Assembly: GCA_902627805.1 (NCBI GenBank)
Contig: CACOKN010000002.1
Span: forward strand, 62,001 to 126,000
DNA from: an uncultured Pelagibacteraceae bacterium
GTDB lineage: Bacteria > Pseudomonadota > Alphaproteobacteria > Pelagibacterales > Pelagibacteraceae
DNA length: 64,000 nucleotides
Direction: 5' to 3'
The notes under the pieces were generated by a model that was not told the origin of the DNA, searched no databases, and saw only the letters and a list, made by a program, of their open reading frames with translations. The position numbers and the translations under genes are program-made. Below, in pieces: positions 13,672 through 56,756 of this stretch. Positions within the stretch are counted from its first letter, which is position 1. Every line of letters starts with the position of its first letter.

Positions 13672-14265
13672 ATGATATTTGAACTTCCAAAACTTGATTA
13701 TGCTAACAATGCGCTTTCTCCAATAATGTCTGAGGAAACTTTAGAAATTCATCATAGTAAACATCATCAGACTTATATAACCAACTTAAATAATTTTATT
13801 AAAGAGACTGATTTATCTAATTCATCATTGGAAGATATAATTTTAAAAAGTTATGAAGATAAATCTAAAACTGGAATATTTAATAATGCAAGCCAACACT
13901 GGAATCATAATCTTTTTTGGAAATGTATGAAACCAAATGGTGGTGGAAAAATTCCGCCAAAACTTGAAAAAAGAATCATTGCAGATTTTGGAAGTGTCGA
14001 AAAGTTTAAAACAGATTTTAAACAAGCGGGAATAACACAATTTGGTTCTGGCTGGTGTTGGTTATCTCTAAGTAATGGTAAACTTGTAGTAACAAAAACT
14101 GCAAATGCAGCTAATCCTTTAATTGATAAAATGCAGCCTATTTTAGGATGTGATGTTTGGGAACACTCTTATTACATTGATTATAGAAATCGACGACCAG
14201 AATATTTAGATAAGTTTGTAGAAAATCTAATTAATTGGGAATTTGTTGAGTCTTTATTAGACTAA
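13672..14265 (+). CDS. sodB: Superoxide dismutase, iron type
   Basis: A 197-residue Fe/Mn superoxide dismutase converting superoxide to oxygen and peroxide. Metal ligands are His27 (EIHHSKHHQTY), His79 (ASQHWNHNLFW), Asp161 and His165 (CDVWEHSYYIDY). Gln75 in the helix before the second ligand is the position that distinguishes Fe-type from Mn-type enzymes, so an iron enzyme is inferred. There is no signal peptide, so it is cytosolic. The stop shares bases (CTAA) with the convergent membrane gene. Confidence 0.95.
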   Translation: MIFELPKLDYANNALSPIMSEETLEIHHSKHHQTYITNLNNFIKETDLSNSSLEDIILKSYEDKSKTGIFNNASQHWNHNLFWKCMKPNGGGKIPPKLEKRIIADFGSVEKFKTDFKQAGITQFGSGWCWLSLSNGKLVVTKTANAANPLIDKMQPILGCDVWEHSYYIDYRNRRPEYLDKFVENLINWEFVESLLD

Positions 14266-26679: not shown

Positions 26680-26937
26680 ATGACCGCTGATATAGAACAA
26701 ATAAAAAAAAAAATTATATACAGATCAAATTATCGCGGTACGAAAGAAATGGATAAACTTTTAGGAGCATTCACTAACAAATACATAGATCAATTAAATG
26801 TTGAAGATTTAAATGAATTGATAAAATTCTTAGAAATAGATGATAATAATCTTTACAATTTTTATAATGGTTTAAAAACCAACATTGAATTTGAAAATAA
26901 CAAAATTAATAATTTATTTAAAAATTTCAAATATTAA
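26680..26937 (+). CDS. sdhE: Succinate dehydrogenase flavinylation factor SdhE
   Basis: An 85-residue protein that promotes covalent FAD attachment to SdhA. The conserved RGTKEMDKLLGAF (the RGxxExD motif) lies near residues 19-32, and the acidic helix bundle follows. The usual alphaproteobacterial order recG-sdhE-mfd is interrupted here: instead of mfd the next feature is tRNA-Ser and an accessory island. The stop is 9 bp from the 3' end of the tRNA on the other strand. Confidence 0.88.
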   Translation: MTADIEQIKKKIIYRSNYRGTKEMDKLLGAFTNKYIDQLNVEDLNELIKFLEIDDNNLYNFYNGLKTNIEFENNKINNLFKNFKY

Positions 26938-26945
26938 CAATTATA

Positions 26946-27035
26946 TGGCGGAGAGACTGGGATTCGAACCCAGGAAAGAGTTGCCCCTTTGCCGGTTTTC
27001 AAGACCGGTGCTTTCAACCGCTCAGCCATCTCTCC
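26946..27035 (-). tRNA. tRNA-Ser (anticodon UGA)
   Basis: A 90-nt class II tRNA with encoded CCA. Read on the minus strand, the acceptor arm GGAGAGA pairs with TCTCTCC, the anticodon stem CCGGT/ACCGG closes CTTGAAA with anticodon TGA, a long variable arm follows, and the T-loop is GGTTCGAATCC. The 5' half and about 40 bp upstream recur in degraded form at 31104-31190, making this the likely attachment site of the island at 27.0-31.1 kb. Confidence 0.97.
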
Positions 27036-27080
27036 GTAAGCAAGGTTTTATAAGTAAAATATTTAATTTCAATAAAAAAA
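26994..27080. repeat. Left copy of the 85-bp att-like direct repeat
   Basis: This covers the anticodon loop, D-arm, 5' acceptor strand and upstream flank of tRNA-Ser. By eye it is about 80% identical to 31104-31190 in the same orientation, with one or two gaps. The longest shared runs are TTCAAGACC (anticodon loop) and TAAAATATTTAATT (upstream flank). Confidence 0.75.
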
Positions 27081-27163
27081 CAGGAGGGATAATTTCATAA
27101 ATATTGCCTGTCGTTCTAGTTTCGCTCTAGTTATCCTATAAAATCCTATGTATAATATTGTGT

Positions 27164-27421
27164 ATGGCAACTTACCAAGAAATTTTAGATAAAGTACCAC
27201 AGTCTGTAAAAGATAAATTTTTAATTAAAAAAAGAGAAAGAGCTATTGAAATAGTTAAGGAAAAAATATCCAACTCAAGTAAAAGCATATCCGACTTTGA
27301 TGATGATGAAATGGAAGGTATGATTGCAGATGAAGAACAAAATCTTAAAGGTGACCAATTAAAAACAATTTTATTTAGTCTACTAACAGCCGAGGGTCTA
27401 TCTTATTTGGCAAATCTTTAA
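27164..27421 (+). CDS. Unknown island protein, 85 residues
   Basis: The first gene of the island, 128 bp upstream of the tRNA-Ser 5' end and divergent from it. The product MATYQEILDKVPQSVKDKF... is soluble, strongly charged and predicted helical, with an acidic centre (SDFDDDEMEGMIADEEQ). A TTG two codons upstream is a less likely start than this ATG. I recognise no family. It is followed after one base by the next gene. The region before it (27101-27160) holds TTCGTTCTAGTTTCG-like repeats also seen at 30972-30995. Confidence 0.6.
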   Translation: MATYQEILDKVPQSVKDKFLIKKRERAIEIVKEKISNSSKSISDFDDDEMEGMIADEEQNLKGDQLKTILFSLLTAEGLSYLANL

Positions 27422-27422
27422 A

Positions 27423-27851
27423 ATGTTTAAAAAAAGTTTATTAGCAATAATTGGCTCAAAGATTTTATTTTTTTTTAAACCTGAGCTAAAAATAGTACTT
27501 AGAAATATAATACTATGTGCAGTATTCATTATATTATTATTATACATTCATTTTGAATTTATTAGTTGGTCAGAAATTTCTGGAAATAATCAATACTTAA
27601 CTTTCTCATATATTCTAAAGAATATTTTAATTTTATTATCTTTAATTTTATTATTTTTTAGTATCAAAAGATCAAAATTAAAAAATGACGGTTTTGATAA
27701 ATTTAGAAATAAAGATCTAAAAAGAGAGATTGATAAAAAACTAAGCACAAGTAATAATAATAAATCAGATATAGATGATAGGTATTTTGATAAATTTAGA
27801 AATAAAAAAAGATTAAGAACAACCCAAGAGATTAAACTCTCTAAGAAATGA
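27423..27851 (+). CDS. Unknown island membrane protein with a repeated FDKFRNK motif
   Basis: A 142-residue protein with two membrane helices (about residues 25-45 and 62-80) and a basic cytoplasmic tail. The tail carries the same heptapeptide twice, GFDKFRNKDLKR and YFDKFRNKKRLR, about 30 residues apart, separated by a low-complexity STSNNNKSD stretch. This suggests a duplicated binding or processing site. It lies one base after the previous gene and overlaps the next by four (ATGA). Family unknown. Confidence 0.6.
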   Translation: MFKKSLLAIIGSKILFFFKPELKIVLRNIILCAVFIILLLYIHFEFISWSEISGNNQYLTFSYILKNILILLSLILLFFSIKRSKLKNDGFDKFRNKDLKREIDKKLSTSNNNKSDIDDRYFDKFRNKKRLRTTQEIKLSKK

Positions 27852-28270
27852 GAAAACAAAATGAAATTGCTATTTTTGAAACATATAGAATAAAGATTTC
27901 TAAAGATGAAAAAAATGAGGTTGAAATTTTAAAAAAACAATTCAAAGAGTCACCTATATCAACAACAGGCTTATTAATAATAGATAGTATTTGCGCACCA
28001 TTTGTATCTAAACCAGATGAAACTGTTGATTACTTTAAAAATAGGTATTCAAATTTATCTAGTGTATTTAAGTCGTCAATAAGAGATGCCGCAATAAGCG
28101 ATGTTACACAAAAAATAAGAAAAAAAAATAAAAAAGCTTACGAATATAAAAAAGATGAATTAGAAAATCTCATATTGAAAGAAGAAAAAAGGATCAAAAA
28201 AAGAGGTAGATTGTGGTTAATTAAAAGACTTGCTATAGTCTGGGGTATTGGTTTTTTACCATTTCAATGA
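27848..28270 (+). CDS. Unknown island protein, 140 residues, basic
   Basis: A charged protein with a very basic middle (KIRKKNKKAYEYKKDELEN) and one hydrophobic C-terminal segment (LWLIKRLAIVWGIGFLPF) that could be a membrane anchor. The start overlaps the previous stop and the stop overlaps the next start (28267), both as ATGA, so it sits in the middle of a tightly coupled translation unit. No known domain is visible to me. Confidence 0.55.
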   Translation: MRKQNEIAIFETYRIKISKDEKNEVEILKKQFKESPISTTGLLIIDSICAPFVSKPDETVDYFKNRYSNLSSVFKSSIRDAAISDVTQKIRKKNKKAYEYKKDELENLILKEEKRIKKRGRLWLIKRLAIVWGIGFLPFQ

Positions 28271-28332
28271 TCGAAGTATTAATAGTTTTAGAGCTAACAT
28301 TTTTAACATATAAATTATTAAGTGATAATTAA
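28267..28332 (+). CDS. Candidate 21-residue membrane microprotein
   Basis: ATG at 28267 overlaps the preceding TGA (ATGA) and the frame ends at TAA 28330-28332. The product MIEVLIVLELTFLTYKLLSDN is almost entirely one hydrophobic helix. The exact four-base overlap matches the coupling used by its neighbours and is the main reason to keep it; a chance frame cannot be excluded. Confidence 0.4.
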   Translation: MIEVLIVLELTFLTYKLLSDN

Positions 28333-28358
28333 TATTGGTAGACTGGTAATGCGTTCTT

Positions 28359-28571
28359 ATGAGGAAACTGAAAGATAAATCTAAACTAGAAACTCTAAAA
28401 ATTTTGAGAGAAAATGGAGTTTCTTTTAAAGATATTTCAAAAGTTTTAAATTTAGATGTGGTTTATCTTCAACATTTATCACGAGTAAATAATTATAAAC
28501 CTTTAACTCAAAATAAAATTAGCTCTAAGGAATTAGATAGAATAGGAGATCAAAAAATCAAATATATTTAA
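28359..28571 (+). CDS. Small helix-turn-helix-like protein, 70 residues
   Basis: A compact basic protein. Residues 9-45 (starting KLETLKILRENGVSFKDI and continuing SKVLNLDVVYLQHLSRVNNY) read like a helix-turn-helix with a Gly at the turn, similar in layout to resolvase or transposase-type DNA-binding segments, followed by a short tail. It is the best candidate for a regulator of the island. Assignment rests only on pattern; no specific family is recognised. Confidence 0.5.
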   Translation: MRKLKDKSKLETLKILRENGVSFKDISKVLNLDVVYLQHLSRVNNYKPLTQNKISSKELDRIGDQKIKYI

Positions 28572-28599
28572 TGAATATGCAATAATTTTTTTTTTAATT

Positions 28600-28719
28600 A
28601 TGATTTTGTATAACCCTTTCATACCTATATATTTAAGCAGAGAAATATGGTTGCCTATAAATTTTCTAACCTCAGGAATTTATTTGTATGCTTTGTTTAA
28701 AAGTAAAAAATTTTTAAAA
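28600..28719 (+). CDS. Possible 39-residue hydrophobic open frame
   Basis: ATG at 28600 to TAA at 28717-28719; the product MILYNPFIPIYLSREIWLPI... is hydrophobic with two prolines. It fills most of the gap between the HTH-like gene and the gene at 28727. There is no ribosome-binding site and no overlap with a neighbour, so support is weak. Confidence 0.22.
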
Positions 28720-28726
28720 ATATAAT

Positions 28727-29002
28727 ATGGCTCTAGGTCCTTCAGAAATAGAATATTATAAAACTATTGTTGAAGCACTCGATGAAAAAGATTTAAAACC
28801 AACTTATGATAACTTAATGAATTCTTTAAAAGCATGTAAGGCTGCAATGGATAAAAGTAAAACTTTAGATCGATTTGTTGAACATATAGTTTGGATAGAC
28901 TGTAGACTTCAGGGTTATTCCTCCACAGGTGTGAAATCTTGGTGGTTTAGAACTAAAGCTAGAGCAAAGTATTATAAAATTGGAGGATTAGGAGGAAAAT
29001 AG
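28727..29002 (+). CDS. Unknown island protein, 91 residues
   Basis: A soluble protein with a helical N-terminal half and an aromatic, basic C-terminus (SWWFRTKARAKYYKIGGLGGK). Two cysteines (in LKACKAAMD and WIDCRLQGY) are present but not in a metal-binding spacing. The next gene's ATG follows the stop with no intervening base (TAGATG). No family recognised. Confidence 0.55.
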   Translation: MALGPSEIEYYKTIVEALDEKDLKPTYDNLMNSLKACKAAMDKSKTLDRFVEHIVWIDCRLQGYSSTGVKSWWFRTKARAKYYKIGGLGGK

Positions 29003-29164
29003 ATGATTAAATTAATAGTAACACTAGGTATATTATTAGGAATATGTGGCTTAGTAAAATTATTGTTTGGAACTGGATGGCCATTATATATAGTTGGAGG
29101 GATAGGTATATTTATCTGGTTGTCTATAAATAATGATTTTTTCAATAAAATTGAAGGTGGTTAA
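29003..29164 (+). CDS. Two-helix membrane protein, 53 residues
   Basis: This frame begins immediately after the preceding TAG and has a purine-rich GGAGGAAAAT segment 3-12 bases upstream that can act as a ribosome-binding site. The product has two glycine-rich hydrophobic helices (LIVTLGILLGICGLVKLLF and a second containing LYIVGGIGIFIWLSI). Placement, RBS and composition make it more convincing than the other microproteins here. Confidence 0.55.
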   Translation: MIKLIVTLGILLGICGLVKLLFGTGWPLYIVGGIGIFIWLSINNDFFNKIEGG

Positions 29165-29184
29165 AATTTGAGTTAATATTTTAT

Positions 29185-29778
29185 ATGTTCAATTGGTTTA
29201 AAAAAAAAAATAAAAACAAAGGTTTCACTTCAACAAAAGATTTAGATTCTGAAAATCCTCTATTAGATTTTTTACAACAAGAAACATCAAGAATAATGGA
29301 TGAAGCAGATGCAAAAAAAGCACCAAATAAATTACAAAAGAATATTAGAAAAAAAATAACTAATTCATTTAAGGAAAAAAATAACAAAAAATCTGATCTA
29401 AAATCAGAATTCATTCAACATTTACAAAAATCTTTAAAAACTGCATTAGGAAAAAATTTAAATAAAAAACTAAATGTTAAAGATAAATATCTCCTTGGTT
29501 ATATATATGGATTATGTGATTATACAAATGACTTGCATGATTTAGATAATGAAATAAATGGTATTGGTACCTTTATGGAGATGCACATGTTTTTTTTCAG
29601 AAATGTTGATCCAGGTGATTTAGGAAACATAATGGGCATGACAGGTAAATTAAGTTCTTCAGGTGATAAAACTTTCTTAGAAGGAGCTATTGATGGTGGA
29701 AGAGCTTTAGGAAATGAGAAAATTTATAGTGAGCTTCCAAAAAAAGCTTATAGCAAATTAGTCTCTCATTTGTCATAA
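29185..29778 (+). CDS. Unknown island protein, 197 residues
   Basis: The largest soluble product of the island. The N-terminal 75 residues are basic and Lys/Asn-rich (starting MFNWFKKKNKNKG); the C-terminal 110 residues look globular, with YLLGYIYGLCDYTNDLHDL, FMEMHMFFFRNVDPGD and a Gly-rich SSGDKTFLEGAIDGGRALGN stretch. I cannot assign a family. It stands 20 bp after the two-helix membrane gene and 42 bp before the next one. Confidence 0.6.
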   Translation: MFNWFKKKNKNKGFTSTKDLDSENPLLDFLQQETSRIMDEADAKKAPNKLQKNIRKKITNSFKEKNNKKSDLKSEFIQHLQKSLKTALGKNLNKKLNVKDKYLLGYIYGLCDYTNDLHDLDNEINGIGTFMEMHMFFFRNVDPGDLGNIMGMTGKLSSSGDKTFLEGAIDGGRALGNEKIYSELPKKAYSKLVSHLS

Positions 29779-29820
29779 TTTTTACATATTTAAAACAATA
29801 TCTGTTTTTAAGATAAAACA

Positions 29821-30009
29821 ATGGTTGATTATTTATTTTATTTATGTGTTGATATATTAGCTTGGTTGGCAAAAGCTACTGGAACAACATATGAATTGAT
29901 AAATATTATTATATTCGTAATAGGTTATCCAATTTTTGTGATTTTATTATTATTAATTATTTATATGCAAAGAAAAAAAATAAATAATCTAACAAGTAAT
30001 AAATTTTAA
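29821..30009 (+). CDS. Small membrane protein, 62 residues
   Basis: Two hydrophobic segments (residues 1-18 and 26-48) end in a positively charged tail (MQRKKINNLTSNKF), suggesting an in-out topology with a cytoplasmic C-terminus. It is the last gene before a 213-bp gene-free leader. Family not recognised. Confidence 0.5.
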   Translation: MVDYLFYLCVDILAWLAKATGTTYELINIIIFVIGYPIFVILLLLIIYMQRKKINNLTSNKF

Positions 30010-30083
30010 TTAACTTTTTTTAAACAAAATTCAGTCCTAATAAAAACAATTTAATACGTATAGTGGTTCTATGCATTGGATTT

Positions 30084-30158
30084 CAGTCCTTTTCTATCGT
30101 ATTCCGCTTTTTTTATTATCTCCCTTGTTGCGTAATTCGAACCAAACGAAAAGGATTG
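30084..30158 (+). ncRNA. Structured leader upstream of the CxxC/secreted-protein gene pair
   Basis: An imperfect long-range hairpin is visible: CAGTCCTTTTC (30084-30094) pairs with GAAAAGGATTG (30148-30158) at 10 of 11 positions, and inside it CGTATTCCGC (30098-30107) pairs with GCGTAATTCG (30130-30139) at 8 of 10. The motif TTCAGTCCT occurs twice (30030 and 30082). An AGGAG lies about 12 bases before the ATG at 30223. An attenuator or regulatory leader is inferred, with the function open. Confidence 0.4.
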
Positions 30159-30222
30159 AGACCATTTCAAACTACAAACTTTTAACCCTCAAAAAATCAA
30201 TCAATAATAGGAGTTCCAATAT

Positions 30223-30408
30223 ATGGAAATAGACCGTGTCTGCAAGTATTGTCACGTTAGTGCTTACGTTGCGTATGATAACTGCGATCCCGTTTATAAG
30301 AAAACATTCAAATTCGAAATTAGCCCTGGTTCACACAACAGTTTAGTCTGGGATAAGATAATCAAAATATTTAAAAAAAATGGCTTTAAAGTGGAGCTCA
30401 AATCATGA
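30223..30408 (+). CDS. Small cysteine-containing protein, 61 residues
   Basis: A soluble basic protein with CKYC near residue 7 and a third Cys at residue 20 (AYDNCDPVY), which could bind a metal with one more ligand. Its DNA, counted over 130 bp, is about 42% G+C, clearly above the flanking island genes, so it may have a separate origin. It is preceded by the structured leader, uses an AGGAG ribosome-binding site, and overlaps the next gene by four bases (ATGA). Confidence 0.5.
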   Translation: MEIDRVCKYCHVSAYVAYDNCDPVYKKTFKFEISPGSHNSLVWDKIIKIFKKNGFKVELKS

Positions 30409-30968
30409 AAAGAGTTTTACTTATTATTTTATTACATCTCTCTCTTTTTTTTCTTGTTTTTGCTTATCAAGCTCAAGCAGAAGAAGATCATTGGGAGGTT
30501 TCTGAATATAAAAATCAAAGCTATGCTCTTGTGTCCGGAGAAATTCAATCTACTGACAAATTTTCATTTATTTTATCTCCTGAAGATCAGTGTATTAAGG
30601 TGAGCGCAATGTTTTCTTTTTTTACATGGCAGGATCCAGGAGATTTTGATCAATTAGTAGGAAGAAAGTTACCGATTAAACTTAATAATATTGAAACAAC
30701 TGCTGAAGTATTAACTACTTTTCCTTATAAGGAAGGATTAAAGGTTGTTTTTTATTTTGGTACATTTCCTTTAAAAGAATACATCTACACTATGTACAAA
30801 TTTTATGAGGAGGAAGGTTTGTATCAAATTCAGATAGTTGATGGACTAAATTTTGTTGCCTCAAAGTACTTTGACATAACTGAAAATAATTGGAAACTTG
30901 ATAAATTGATTCCCTCAATGAATGATGCTTTTGAAATTTGTAAAACCATTAAAGATAAAAATGTTTAA
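30405..30968 (+). CDS. Exported protein of unknown function, 187 residues
   Basis: A clear signal peptide (basic MKRVL, hydrophobic core to about residue 20, then AYQAQAEED as cleavage region) points to the periplasm. The mature part is a mixed-charge beta-rich sequence with a single internal Cys pair (residues 55 and 181). No enzymatic motif is visible. Coupling to the CxxC gene by a four-base overlap suggests joint function. It is the last gene before the degraded tRNA-Ser copy. Confidence 0.6.
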   Translation: MKRVLLIILLHLSLFFLVFAYQAQAEEDHWEVSEYKNQSYALVSGEIQSTDKFSFILSPEDQCIKVSAMFSFFTWQDPGDFDQLVGRKLPIKLNNIETTAEVLTTFPYKEGLKVVFYFGTFPLKEYIYTMYKFYEEEGLYQIQIVDGLNFVASKYFDITENNWKLDKLIPSMNDAFEICKTIKDKNV

Positions 30969-31229
30969 TTGTTCGTTGTAGTTTCGTTCTAGTTTCTAGC
31001 TTAGGCGACCTAATAACGACGCAGATTTTGAAAAACTAAATTTAAAAAAGTAAGCAATGGCTTAATTTGTATGTATATTGTCGTAAAGGGGTAGGGGTAA
31101 CTTGGAATTTCAAGACCAGTGCTTACAACCACTCAGTCATCTCTACGTGTAGAAGCTTTTGTAATTAAAATATTTAATTCAATAATAAAATAGTCTAATT
31201 ACTCATGATATTTTATTCATTTAATTAGT
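30969..31229. other. Island right boundary, non-coding
   Basis: There is no convincing gene. The left part carries TTCGTTGTAGTTTCGTTCTAGTTTC-like tandem motifs that echo the segment at 27111-27130 on the opposite side of the island. The middle is featureless. The right part is the decayed tRNA-Ser copy and the promoter region of rarD. Confidence 0.5.
31104..31190 (-). pseudogene. Decayed tRNA-Ser 5' half plus promoter flank (att-like right copy)
   Basis: On the minus strand, the segment from the 5' acceptor strand through D-arm to the anticodon loop matches tRNA-Ser at 26946-27035 with five to six substitutions, and the upstream AT-rich flank matches too. Beyond the anticodon loop similarity stops abruptly. 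No 3' half is present, so it cannot make a tRNA. It marks the right end of the accessory island. Confidence 0.75.
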
Positions 31230-32108
31230 ATGAAAAATGATTTTAACAAAGGTTTAATATTAACTTCTTTAGGTTCTTTTTGGTGGGGATTTATTGGAGT
31301 TATATATTTTGAGTCAGTTTCTTTTATTGGTCATACTGAATTAGTTGTTCACAGATGTCTGTGGACAGCAATAATGTTAATTTTAACCACAACATTTCTG
31401 TCTAAATGGAAAATTTTTTTAAAAGAAGTAAAAGATAAAAAAAAATTAATTGCATTATTTTTGTCTGGTTTTTTAATTTTTGTTAATTGGTCTATATGGA
31501 TATATGCTGTTGCATCAGAAAGGATTATTGATGCTAGTTTTGGTTATTTTATAATGCCAATAATTAGTGTTCTTTTGGGATATATTTTTTTTAAAGAGGA
31601 ACTAAACAAAAAAAGGATTTTTTCAATTATTCTAGTTTTTGTTTCAATATTAATTTTAATTTTTTTTAATCTTAAATCATTACCATGGGTCGGTCTCATT
31701 GTAGCTTTTAGTTGGGCCTTTTATAACTTAGTTCGAAAAAAAATTGAAATTGATACCGATATTGGATTGTTAATTGAAAGTTTATATATTTTCCCTTTTG
31801 CTTTAGTTGCATTTTATATAATTGCAAATAATGGTCTAAACGACTTTAACTTAAGTAATCCAGGATTAAGTCTATATTTACTTTTAGCTGGTCCGATGAC
31901 TGTGATTCCTTTGTTTCTATATGTAAGAGGGGTTGAGTTAATTGGATTAGGACCTACCGGAATGATATTTTATATTACGCCAACATTACAGTTCATTTTA
32001 GGTTATTTTTATTATGGAGAGGATTTTTCATTAGTTAAATTTCTAAGTTTTATTATTATTTGGATTGCTGTAATTATATATTTAAATGACTTATATGAAA
32101 AAAATTAA
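31230..32108 (+). CDS. rarD: EamA-family transporter RarD
   Basis: A 292-residue ten-helix drug/metabolite transporter. RarD-specific segments include LGSFWWGFIGVIYFESV, HRCLWTAIML near residue 45 and VNWSIWIYAVASERIIDASFG, with the second repeat ending in TPTLQFILGYFYYGE. The substrate is not known with certainty; the name comes from a chloramphenicol-sensitivity phenotype. It begins right after the island boundary and overlaps the next gene by 14 bp. Confidence 0.88.
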   Translation: MKNDFNKGLILTSLGSFWWGFIGVIYFESVSFIGHTELVVHRCLWTAIMLILTTTFLSKWKIFLKEVKDKKKLIALFLSGFLIFVNWSIWIYAVASERIIDASFGYFIMPIISVLLGYIFFKEELNKKRIFSIILVFVSILILIFFNLKSLPWVGLIVAFSWAFYNLVRKKIEIDTDIGLLIESLYIFPFALVAFYIIANNGLNDFNLSNPGLSLYLLLAGPMTVIPLFLYVRGVELIGLGPTGMIFYITPTLQFILGYFYYGEDFSLVKFLSFIIIWIAVIIYLNDLYEKN

Positions 32109-55802: not shown

Positions 55803-56756
55803 ATGAACGAACTAATAACAGACCTAAAATCGCTTCACGAGGCAACTCTAAATAACCTCAAAAGCTCTAAAGCAAATAACACTTTAAGGGCATATAAATC
55901 AGACTTTAAAGATTTTGGAACTTTTTGTGCTAAACATGGATTAAATTCATTGCCATCAGAGCCAAAAATAGTCTCTTTATACCTAACTCATCTTTCTAAA
56001 AATTCAAAAATCAGCACTTTAAGGAGAAGATTAGTGTCAATTAGCATGGTGCATAAACTCAAAGGTCATTATTTAGATACAAAACATCCAATTATTGTAG
56101 AAAATTTAATGGGGATAAAAAGAGTAAAAGGAAGTATTCAAAAAGGAAAAAAACCTATATTAATCAATCATTTAAAATCAATAATTAATGTAATAGATGA
56201 GCAAAAAATTGAAAATATAAAGAAGTTAAGAGACAAGTCAATTATTCTAGTAGGCTTTGGAGGTGGCTTTAGACGAACTGAGCTTATTTCAATTGATCAT
56301 GAAGATTTAGAATTTGTACCTGAAGGTCTCAAAATTACCATCAGAAAATCAAAAACTGATCAATTTGGTGAAGGAATGATAAAAGGACTACCCTACTTTA
56401 ACAAAGAAAATTATTGCCCTGTAGTCAATCTTAAAAAATGGCTAGAAATTTCTAAAATTAAATCTGGACCTATTTTTAGAAGATTTTCTAAAGGCTTATC
56501 TTTAACAGAAAAAAGATTAACCGATCAATCAGTGGTCTTATTAATGAAAGAATATTTGAATTTAGCAGGCATCGAGAATAAGAATTTTGCAGGTCATAGC
56601 TTGAGATCTGGTTTTGCAACTGTTGCTGCAGAATCTGGTGCTGATGAACGTAGTATTATGGCAATGACTGGTCACAAAACATCACAAATGGTTAGAAGAT
56701 ACATAAGAGAAGCAAATATATTTAAAAATAATGCTTTAAATAAGATTAAGATTTAA
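55803..56756 (+). CDS. Tyrosine recombinase/integrase
   Basis: A 317-residue site-specific recombinase. The N-terminal SAM-like core-binding domain (about residues 10-100) includes KANNTLRAYKSDFKDFGTFC. Catalytic residues are Arg157 (GFRRTELISI), Lys184 (RKSKTDQF), His265 and Arg268 (GHSLRSGF), His291 (GHKTS) and Tyr300 (VRRYIREAN). All are present, so it should be active. It is not next to dif-like sites that I can recognise. It converges on the glycosyltransferase, 5 bp away. Confidence 0.9.
   Translation: MNELITDLKSLHEATLNNLKSSKANNTLRAYKSDFKDFGTFCAKHGLNSLPSEPKIVSLYLTHLSKNSKISTLRRRLVSISMVHKLKGHYLDTKHPIIVENLMGIKRVKGSIQKGKKPILINHLKSIINVIDEQKIENIKKLRDKSIILVGFGGGFRRTELISIDHEDLEFVPEGLKITIRKSKTDQFGEGMIKGLPYFNKENYCPVVNLKKWLEISKIKSGPIFRRFSKGLSLTEKRLTDQSVVLLMKEYLNLAGIENKNFAGHSLRSGFATVAAESGADERSIMAMTGHKTSQMVRRYIREANIFKNNALNKIKI

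Follow-up and report, generated by a model that had tools for sequence, protein, structure and literature searches.

Islander islands are bounded by an intact tRNA gene at one end and by a displaced fragment of that gene at the other, include a class whose crossover is centered on the anticodon, and possess an attP of about 250 bp (PMC4383910). The fragment derives from the 5' side in 159 of the 3919 islands, so this polarity is known but uncommon, and Islander rejects candidates that lack an integrase or are shorter than 2 kb (PMC4383910). Here we discuss an island in an uncultured Pelagibacteraceae bacterium, located at the tRNA-Ser(UGA) gene of a 64,000-nt stretch of DNA, referred to as the window (assembly GCA_902627805.1, contig CACOKN010000002.1, positions 62,001-126,000, forward strand; window positions count from its first letter), together with its related copies, referred to as SAR11 cassettes. 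They resemble Islander islands in having an intact tRNA gene at one end and, at the other, a displaced fragment oriented as in the gene, and further in a crossover at the anticodon and a putative attP of about 250 bp; they differ in that no integrase gene is recognized inside them and in that 13 of the 25 measured copies are shorter than 2 kb.

Cis-mobilizable elements have attL and attR ends and encode neither integration nor transfer genes. Both this term and tandem ssrA islands have been reported (PMC3146451). The SAR11 cassettes are likewise flanked by attL and attR, form tandem arrays, and contain no recognized integration genes, transfer genes having been judged by family scans that cover part of the cargo; they differ in that only tandem arrays, and no neighboring integrase-bearing element, were seen at the tRNA-Ser site in the stretches read, and in that their arm-like repeats vary by element. 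Tycheposons, which are 4-200 kb long and carry a tyrosine recombinase (PMC10872708), are also cargo elements beside tRNA genes of streamlined aquatic bacteria, whereas the SAR11 cassettes span 0.2-7.5 kb and no tyrosine recombinase is recognized in them. CALIN, the integron cassette arrays without an integrase (PMC11389934), are similarly tandem cassettes that would need an integrase in trans, but the SAR11 cassettes are anchored at a tRNA gene and each has its own tRNA half. In the same bacterial order, a laterally acquired phn operon of Pelagibacterales lies beside tyrosine recombinases and tRNA genes (PMC12416821), which is again a suspected transfer at tRNA genes, but with a recombinase present; recombinase-free cassettes are not mentioned in the available part of that report. 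Furthermore, SAR11 elements at tRNA-Met and tRNA-Gly share with the cassettes the replacement of the 5' part of the gene and the presence of end repeats, and differ in encoding an integrase. The integrases of the Pseudomonas phages YA3, Ab31 and PAJU2 are 34% identical to that of one SAR11 element; these phages encode their own enzyme, and YA3 uses the last 63 bp, on the 3' side, of a serine tRNA gene (PMC7326022). No description of such cassettes at the SAR11 tRNA-Ser was found in the literature, as judged by titles and the beginnings of abstracts in a search that was not exhaustive.

ARAGORN places the tRNA-Ser, with anticodon tga, at 26946-27035, the position given in the first-pass annotation of the window, on the minus strand; at 31.1 kb it calls none. 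Among the direct repeats of this region, the highest-ranking one pairs 26997-27079 with 31108-31190 (83 nt, 80% identity, same orientation). Its similarity begins at the anticodon loop of the tRNA (TTTCAAG), and the displaced half matches the 5' half in use at 34 of 39 positions, with 5 changed. The annotation had correctly described the anticodon loop, the identity, the orientation and the end of this repeat, the start of which is at 31108 instead of 31104. In the following list of the island ends and in the text, G000 is the genome of the window, other G numbers are genomes of the same genus, and L numbers are loci or contig stretches.

26946-26996, minus strand: host part of tRNA-Ser(UGA), 3' half to the anticodon loop (ARAGORN; identical in the aligned empty site of G104)
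26997-27035, minus strand: 5' half of tRNA-Ser(UGA) now in use, element-supplied, attL core (direct repeat D1; comparison of empty sites and element ends)
27036-27083, no strand: element-type upstream flank of the tRNA, putative promoter region (identity of 78.4% with the G104 empty site, the nearest one, and of 79.6-91.7% with the left ends of 23 other elements)
27109-27130, plus strand: 11-bp tandem repeat of the left end, 74 bp away from the end of the tRNA (putative integrase arm sites)
27131-27149, plus strand: left-end TTATCCTATAAAATCCTAT, kept in most left ends, promoter-like, of presumed role (left-end alignment)
30971-30992, plus strand: 11-bp tandem repeat of the right end, similar to that on the left (137 bp ahead of the junction)
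30993-31107, plus strand: conserved right end to the junction, with an integration host factor (IHF)-like site at 31052-31064 that has one mismatch (IHF scan)
31108-31146, minus strand: original 5' half of tRNA-Ser, now displaced, attR core with 5 changes in 39 bases (repeat alignment)
31147-31229, no strand: original upstream flank of the tRNA, which runs on to rarD (agrees with the G104 empty site at 79 of 84 aligned positions)

The flanking genes, sdhE-like at 26680-26937 and rarD-like at 31230-32108, were searched in 151 genomes of the genus (own included); both were matched on one contig in 94 of them, while 10 more had one match or matches on different contigs. The gap between the two genes is 165-261 bp in 86 of the 94 informative genomes, and the local order across the site is thus sdhE followed by the rarD-like gene, not the recG-sdhE-mfd order that the island had been thought to break. 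Larger gaps occur in the other eight: G132 (433 bp), G145 (1,247), G019 (2,069), G124 (2,427), G094 (2,654), G080 (3,226), G000 (4,295) and G089 (7,685). Two of these insertions lie outside the tRNA-Ser cassette family: that of G145, placed between sdhE and the tRNA, and that of G019, which contains nucleotidyltransferase- and epimerase-like genes (by eye). Both, read in the loci L020 and L019, are near the same tRNA and lack the repeat.

In all 12 short sites read, out of the 86, a single tRNA-Ser(tga) with a single copy of the half adjoins the rarD-side flank directly, which is the arrangement predicted for relatives without the island. Identity of the window to the nearest relative, G104, is 96.3% left of the island and 97.0% right of it; the two alignments share 87 bases, which fall within the repeat. 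When 11 empty sites were aligned, the right copy was seen to lead into the flank that those sites have (79/84 positions, or 94.0%, for G104), whereas the left flank agrees with the G104 empty site at 40 of 51 positions and is 79.6-91.7% identical to 23 other element left ends. Since the left flank is element-like and the right one is like that of the empty sites, the tRNA gene owes its 5' half and the flank upstream of it to the element, which displaced the old half. In G096 and G140 the empty site carries element-like bases directly beside the tRNA, and the flank alone is therefore a weaker proof than the displaced copy. Thus, the island entered tRNA-Ser(UGA) at its anticodon loop, bringing a new 5' half and upstream flank and leaving the old half at the far end, as had been proposed from the sequence of the locus.

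The island is one of 30 related copies from its genus and from contigs titled Pelagibacteraceae, 29 of which have all or part of the right end. Element size ranges from 212 to 7,454 bp, with a median of 1,944, in the 25 copies uncut by a contig or stretch end (including G094 and G124b, each one end short). The right end, comprising the last ~135 bp ahead of the junction, could be aligned over about 90 bases or more in 16 of the 399 genomes of the genus, with two copies each in G124 and G171; the search had matched 79 genomes, 63 of which had only short matches (about 20-42 bases) and were dropped. Because two candidates were scored per genome, this is an undercount, and G080 and G132 came from a search with the tRNA half instead. 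An exact right-end pattern retrieved 17 stretches from the genome contig collection, all titled Pelagibacteraceae. The tRNA half abuts the right end in all 13 genus-genome copies that reach the junction (G169 is cut by a contig end) and in all 17 contig-collection stretches, a set that overlaps with the first. Tandem pairs of elements are present in G124, G171 and L090, and the second element keeps its left end in the latter two. The smallest element, that of G132 (L018, 522-733), has 212 bp, no open reading frame (ORF) of 45 amino acids (aa) or more and a single repeat pair; it looks as if a left and a right end had been joined, after the loss of a cargo or before the gain of one.

In the 22 copies with both ends readable, an 11-bp tandem repeat is located 73-75 bp after the tRNA end on the left and 137-140 bp before the junction on the right. 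This repeat varies between elements and agrees between the two ends of one element: the left-right agreement is 0.889 within elements vs 0.600 with shuffled partners (sd 0.033), and none of 20,000 permutations reached the observed value. The test omits eight of the 30 copies, namely G021, G008, G169, L083 and L088, which are cut by a contig or stretch end, G124b, whose left end is not readable, G094, which has no right end, and G132, which has one shared repeat pair. In the own genome the repeat occurs at the two element ends only, up to 2 mismatches being allowed. An IHF-type site is present without mismatch in 18 of 28 right ends. Taken together, the ends have the appearance of an attP with arm sites. 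As for other signals, an Rfam scan of the island returned nothing but the tRNA above the gathering score, a promoter scan gave 23 sites vs 29.0 expected, and a terminator scan gave 0 vs 1.4.

No recombinase was recognized inside the elements. PF00589 had no match within the 21 copies of the 19 element-bearing genomes, although 17 of these genomes (own included) have matches outside the elements, the remaining two having none, and PF00239 had no match in any of the 19. A Pfam scan of ORFs of at least 156 aa in the other nine copies, from the contig collection, found no recombinase either (L083 and L088 are incomplete). A profile built from five SAR11 integrases matched none of the 410 open frames of the 30 copies; it is insensitive, as it missed the PF00589 protein of contig L146 (see below), so the absence rests mainly on the PF00589 search and on the Pfam scans of the nine copies. 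The annotation had stated that no integrase remains in the island; indeed none is recognized, but "remains" needs rewording, because the related copies are also without one while their ends are complete and matched, which suggests use in trans more than loss.

With complete, matched ends and no enzyme, a trans-acting tyrosine integrase is the simplest reading, and we consider it likely that the island is an integrative cassette that is not autonomous, in that it has complete attachment sites but depends for its movement on integrases acting in trans; the inserting enzyme probably comes from elsewhere in the cell. In this reading, the 11-bp repeats would be the arm-type sites, and the two ends would form an attP consisting of the right arm, the IHF-like site, the core with the tRNA half, and the left arm. 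A tyrosine integrase, most likely from a phage or another mobile element, would act in trans and insert the circular cassette into tRNA-Ser. Successive insertions at this tRNA, regenerated each time, would give rise to tandem arrays, and selection may keep the cargo, which in some copies includes anti-phage systems.

Tyrosine recombinases are mostly few in SAR11 genomes: 294 of the 399 searched have a match, and approximately 26 of these have more than one (counted by eye). An integrase of the profiled type, A1, occurs in 19 of the 399 at an E value of 1e-25 or better and is absent from the own genome. The A1-type carriers with a repeated tRNA part use tRNA-Met, tRNA-Gly or tRNA-Asn, and the others have tRNA-like fragments or none in the stretch. 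The elements at tRNA-Met in G345, G284, G303 and G389 and those at tRNA-Gly in G180 and G124 repeat the 5' 41-54 bases of the tRNA; those of G187 and G222, at tRNA-Met, repeat 57-58 bases, and that of G253, at tRNA-Asn, has the usual 3' polarity. An element-specific motif, such as TGTCACAA at tRNA-Met, is common to both ends in G345, G284, G303, G389 and G180; the automatic best-tandem search found an end-shared repeat in G345 and G180 only, and the other three rest on shared 8-mers and the sequences. Three genomes (G389, G180 and G124) contain both integrase-bearing and tRNA-Ser elements. An HsdM-type protein is encoded both by the tRNA-Met element of G389 and by the tRNA-Ser element of G169, with 83% identity over 484 aa, indicating that the two kinds of element take their cargo from a common stock. 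The loci L102-L106, L111, L120, L121 and L123 hold integrase-bearing elements at tRNA-Met and tRNA-Gly, and the 5' tRNA part is repeated in eight of these nine; the exception, L105, has no second tRNA copy in reach, and L106 contains a type I restriction system.

The helper searches depend on exact or close matches and would not detect a helper whose repeats lie in a different sequence context. The exact tRNA-half pattern had four matches in IMG/VR, all within an intact tRNA-Ser, and was discarded as a lead. A shorter core pattern had 21, two of which (L129 and L134, with a guanine-plus-cytosine (GC) fraction of 0.61) also match the integrase profile. In the viral contigs L129, L132, L134-L138 and L143 (GC 0.60-0.61) the tRNA-Ser 5' half is preceded by AA (AATTTCAAGACC); most SAR11 junctions likewise have an A before TTTCAAG, and L129 and L134 have an integrase-like frame in the stretch. 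The 11-bp repeat patterns had 0, 1 and 1 matches, the latter two in L146 and L147. The low-GC contig L146 encodes a PF00589 protein (2-946) with a TGTCTCTAG-type tandem repeat (2448-2468) ~1.5 kb away, in a repetitive coding frame; it is either a chance match or a lead to the helper and deserves a second look. The low-GC viral contig L147 has several GCTTCTAG-like 11-bp repeats at 14030-14080, just upstream of a terminase gene, which could be due to chance. One exact match each, in a collection this large, is near what chance would give.

Several points weigh against movement in trans. The copy in the window is among the two most decayed, since only G124a, with 33 matches of 39 in the displaced half, has fewer, and it may be immobile through decay. 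The repeat at the other end of the same element is the best partner, or tied for best, in only 15 of the 22 elements, and the permutation test treats as independent elements that are partly related. No tRNA-Ser was called in the stretches read around the 19 A1-type integrases, the right-end pattern and the tRNA half preceded by A each had 0 matches in IMG/VR, and the right end was without a match in the phage collection. Cargo is 77.6% identical between G000 and G174 vs flanks of 85.0% and 75.7%, and 91.4% between G333 and G094 vs flanks of 96.1% and 94.6%. The genomes are drafts; the contigs retrieved from the contig collection bear AG- isolate names, which are used for single-cell genomes, and some are labeled as metagenome-assembled genomes (MAG). 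Finally, excision and transfer of the cassettes are hypothetical steps.

One alternative is that the copies are defective remnants, each having lost its own integrase after insertion and being now fixed. The decay of the displaced half in the window, the lack of a right end in G094 and of a readable left end in G124b, and the failure of the IMG/VR and phage collection searches to find a helper would all fit. We regard it nevertheless as unlikely, because no recombinase or fragment of one was recognized in the 30 copies (five incomplete), the displaced half is unchanged, 39/39, in 18 of 28 copies (G094 aside), and both ends stay matched in sequence and position while the cargo differs.

It is more doubtful still that the resident Xer-like tyrosine recombinase (55803-56756) moves the cassettes in an integron-like manner. 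No other PF00589 protein was found in the own genome, which is 96.8% complete; the gene adjoins a glycosyltransferase-like ORF, and 15 of the other 18 genomes with elements yielded a homologue, 59-95% identical. It scores far under the XerC/XerD cut-offs, however (70.3 vs 329.6 bits for XerD), and by Pfam has only the SAM-like and catalytic domains, with no arm-binding domain. In addition, a comparison of repeat type with the Xer protein across 15 hosts showed no correlation (Mantel r=0.00, p=0.47); this comparison leaves out the second elements of G124 and G171, G132 and G169 (no PF00589 match), and G389 (whose sole match is the tRNA-Met integrase). An unrecognized recombinase hidden among the cargo genes would be compatible with the many small cargo proteins without a recognized function, but it is very improbable, as no gene is common to all copies compared and the 212-bp G132 element has no ORF that could encode it at 45 aa or more. 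Although the copy at 31108-31190 is degenerate (5/39 changes), that it is an independent tRNA pseudogene with a coincidental repeat can be dismissed almost entirely, because its flank is the original tRNA flank of the empty sites, the same junction recurs in other elements, and none of the 12 empty-site loci read combines an empty site with a pseudogene, the observation that had been named as decisive against the island.

The annotation had described only unrecognized small genes between the two repeats and, in agreement with this, none of the 10 island ORFs scanned reaches a Pfam cut-off. These ORFs, all on the plus strand, are the following.

27158-27421, plus strand: 87 aa, or 85 aa from the ATG at 27164 (ORF list, Pfam and PHROG scans)
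27423-27851, plus strand: 142 aa, N-terminal part hydrophobic by eye (ORF list, Pfam scan)
27848-28270, plus strand: 140 aa (ORF list, Pfam scan)
28359-28571, plus strand: 70 aa, weak MerR_1 match under the cut-off (Pfam scan)
28727-29002, plus strand: 91 aa, common to the elements of G389 (89%) and G124 (84%) (blastp)
29003-29164, plus strand: 53 aa, 52 of 53 residues the same as in the G389 element (comparison)
29185-29778, plus strand: 197 aa, in G389 (89%), weak phage anti-repressor PHROG match, 6.2e-05 (blastp, PHROG)
29821-30009, plus strand: 62 aa, in G389 (94%) (blastp)
30223-30408, plus strand: 61 aa (ORF list, Pfam scan)
30405-30968, plus strand: 187 aa, signal-peptide-like start by eye, in G174 (77%) and G389 (75%) (blastp)

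Four of these proteins recur in other elements by blastp (G389 75-94%, G124 84%, G174 77%), and a fifth, of 53 aa, recurs in G389. Other copies carry recognizable functions. A PADLOC scan of eight cargo proteins detected a type IIG enzyme in the G080 element, a type III methyltransferase with a weaker type III restriction subunit in that of G151, and an HKD-Snf2 helicase with a IIG/PglX-like enzyme in that of G089; the large proteins of G021 and G171b had no PADLOC match, and a 394-aa protein had only a weak one. Pfam families in the cargo comprise NB-ARC (G171b), a caspase domain (G180), trypsin (L076), HsdM (G169), a type I specificity domain (L088), a glycosyltransferase (L083), MORN repeats (L090) and DUF805 (L078), and the remaining cargo is mostly without recognized function.

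Identity of cargo and of host flanks was compared for 15 element pairs, several of which have a short flank alignment or none. In two pairs the cargo is clearly more similar than the flanks: for G000 and G389 its identity is 86.5% in one segment of 1,484 bp and 76.4% in another of 450 bp, vs flanks of 69.5% and 70.3%, and for G174 and G389 it is 91.7% over 625 bp, vs flanks of 69.4% and 70.5%. The pair L076 and L078 has near flanks (91.7% and 90.8%) and no alignable cargo, which fits turnover.

SAR11 bacteria are among the most abundant bacterial groups of the ocean and have small genomes. We tentatively suggest, as a possibility held with less confidence than movement in trans itself, that SAR11 species share a pool of tRNA-anchored cassettes, in which tRNA-Ser(UGA) would serve as a fixed docking site and enzyme-free cassettes, some with whole anti-phage systems, would circulate between species, moved by several phage- or element-borne integrases chosen by the arm repeats. 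Enzyme-free cassettes with readable arm sites would then offer a handle on the exchange of defense genes in SAR11: the repeat would predict which integrase moves which cassette, and the docking site could be counted in metagenomes. Screens that require an integrase inside the island would miss such cassettes.

A minor observation concerns the segment 30010-30222, between two cargo ORFs of the island, which is apparently absent from the matching G389 element and has a possible inverted repeat around TCAGTCCTTTTC / GAAAAGGATTGA (by eye).

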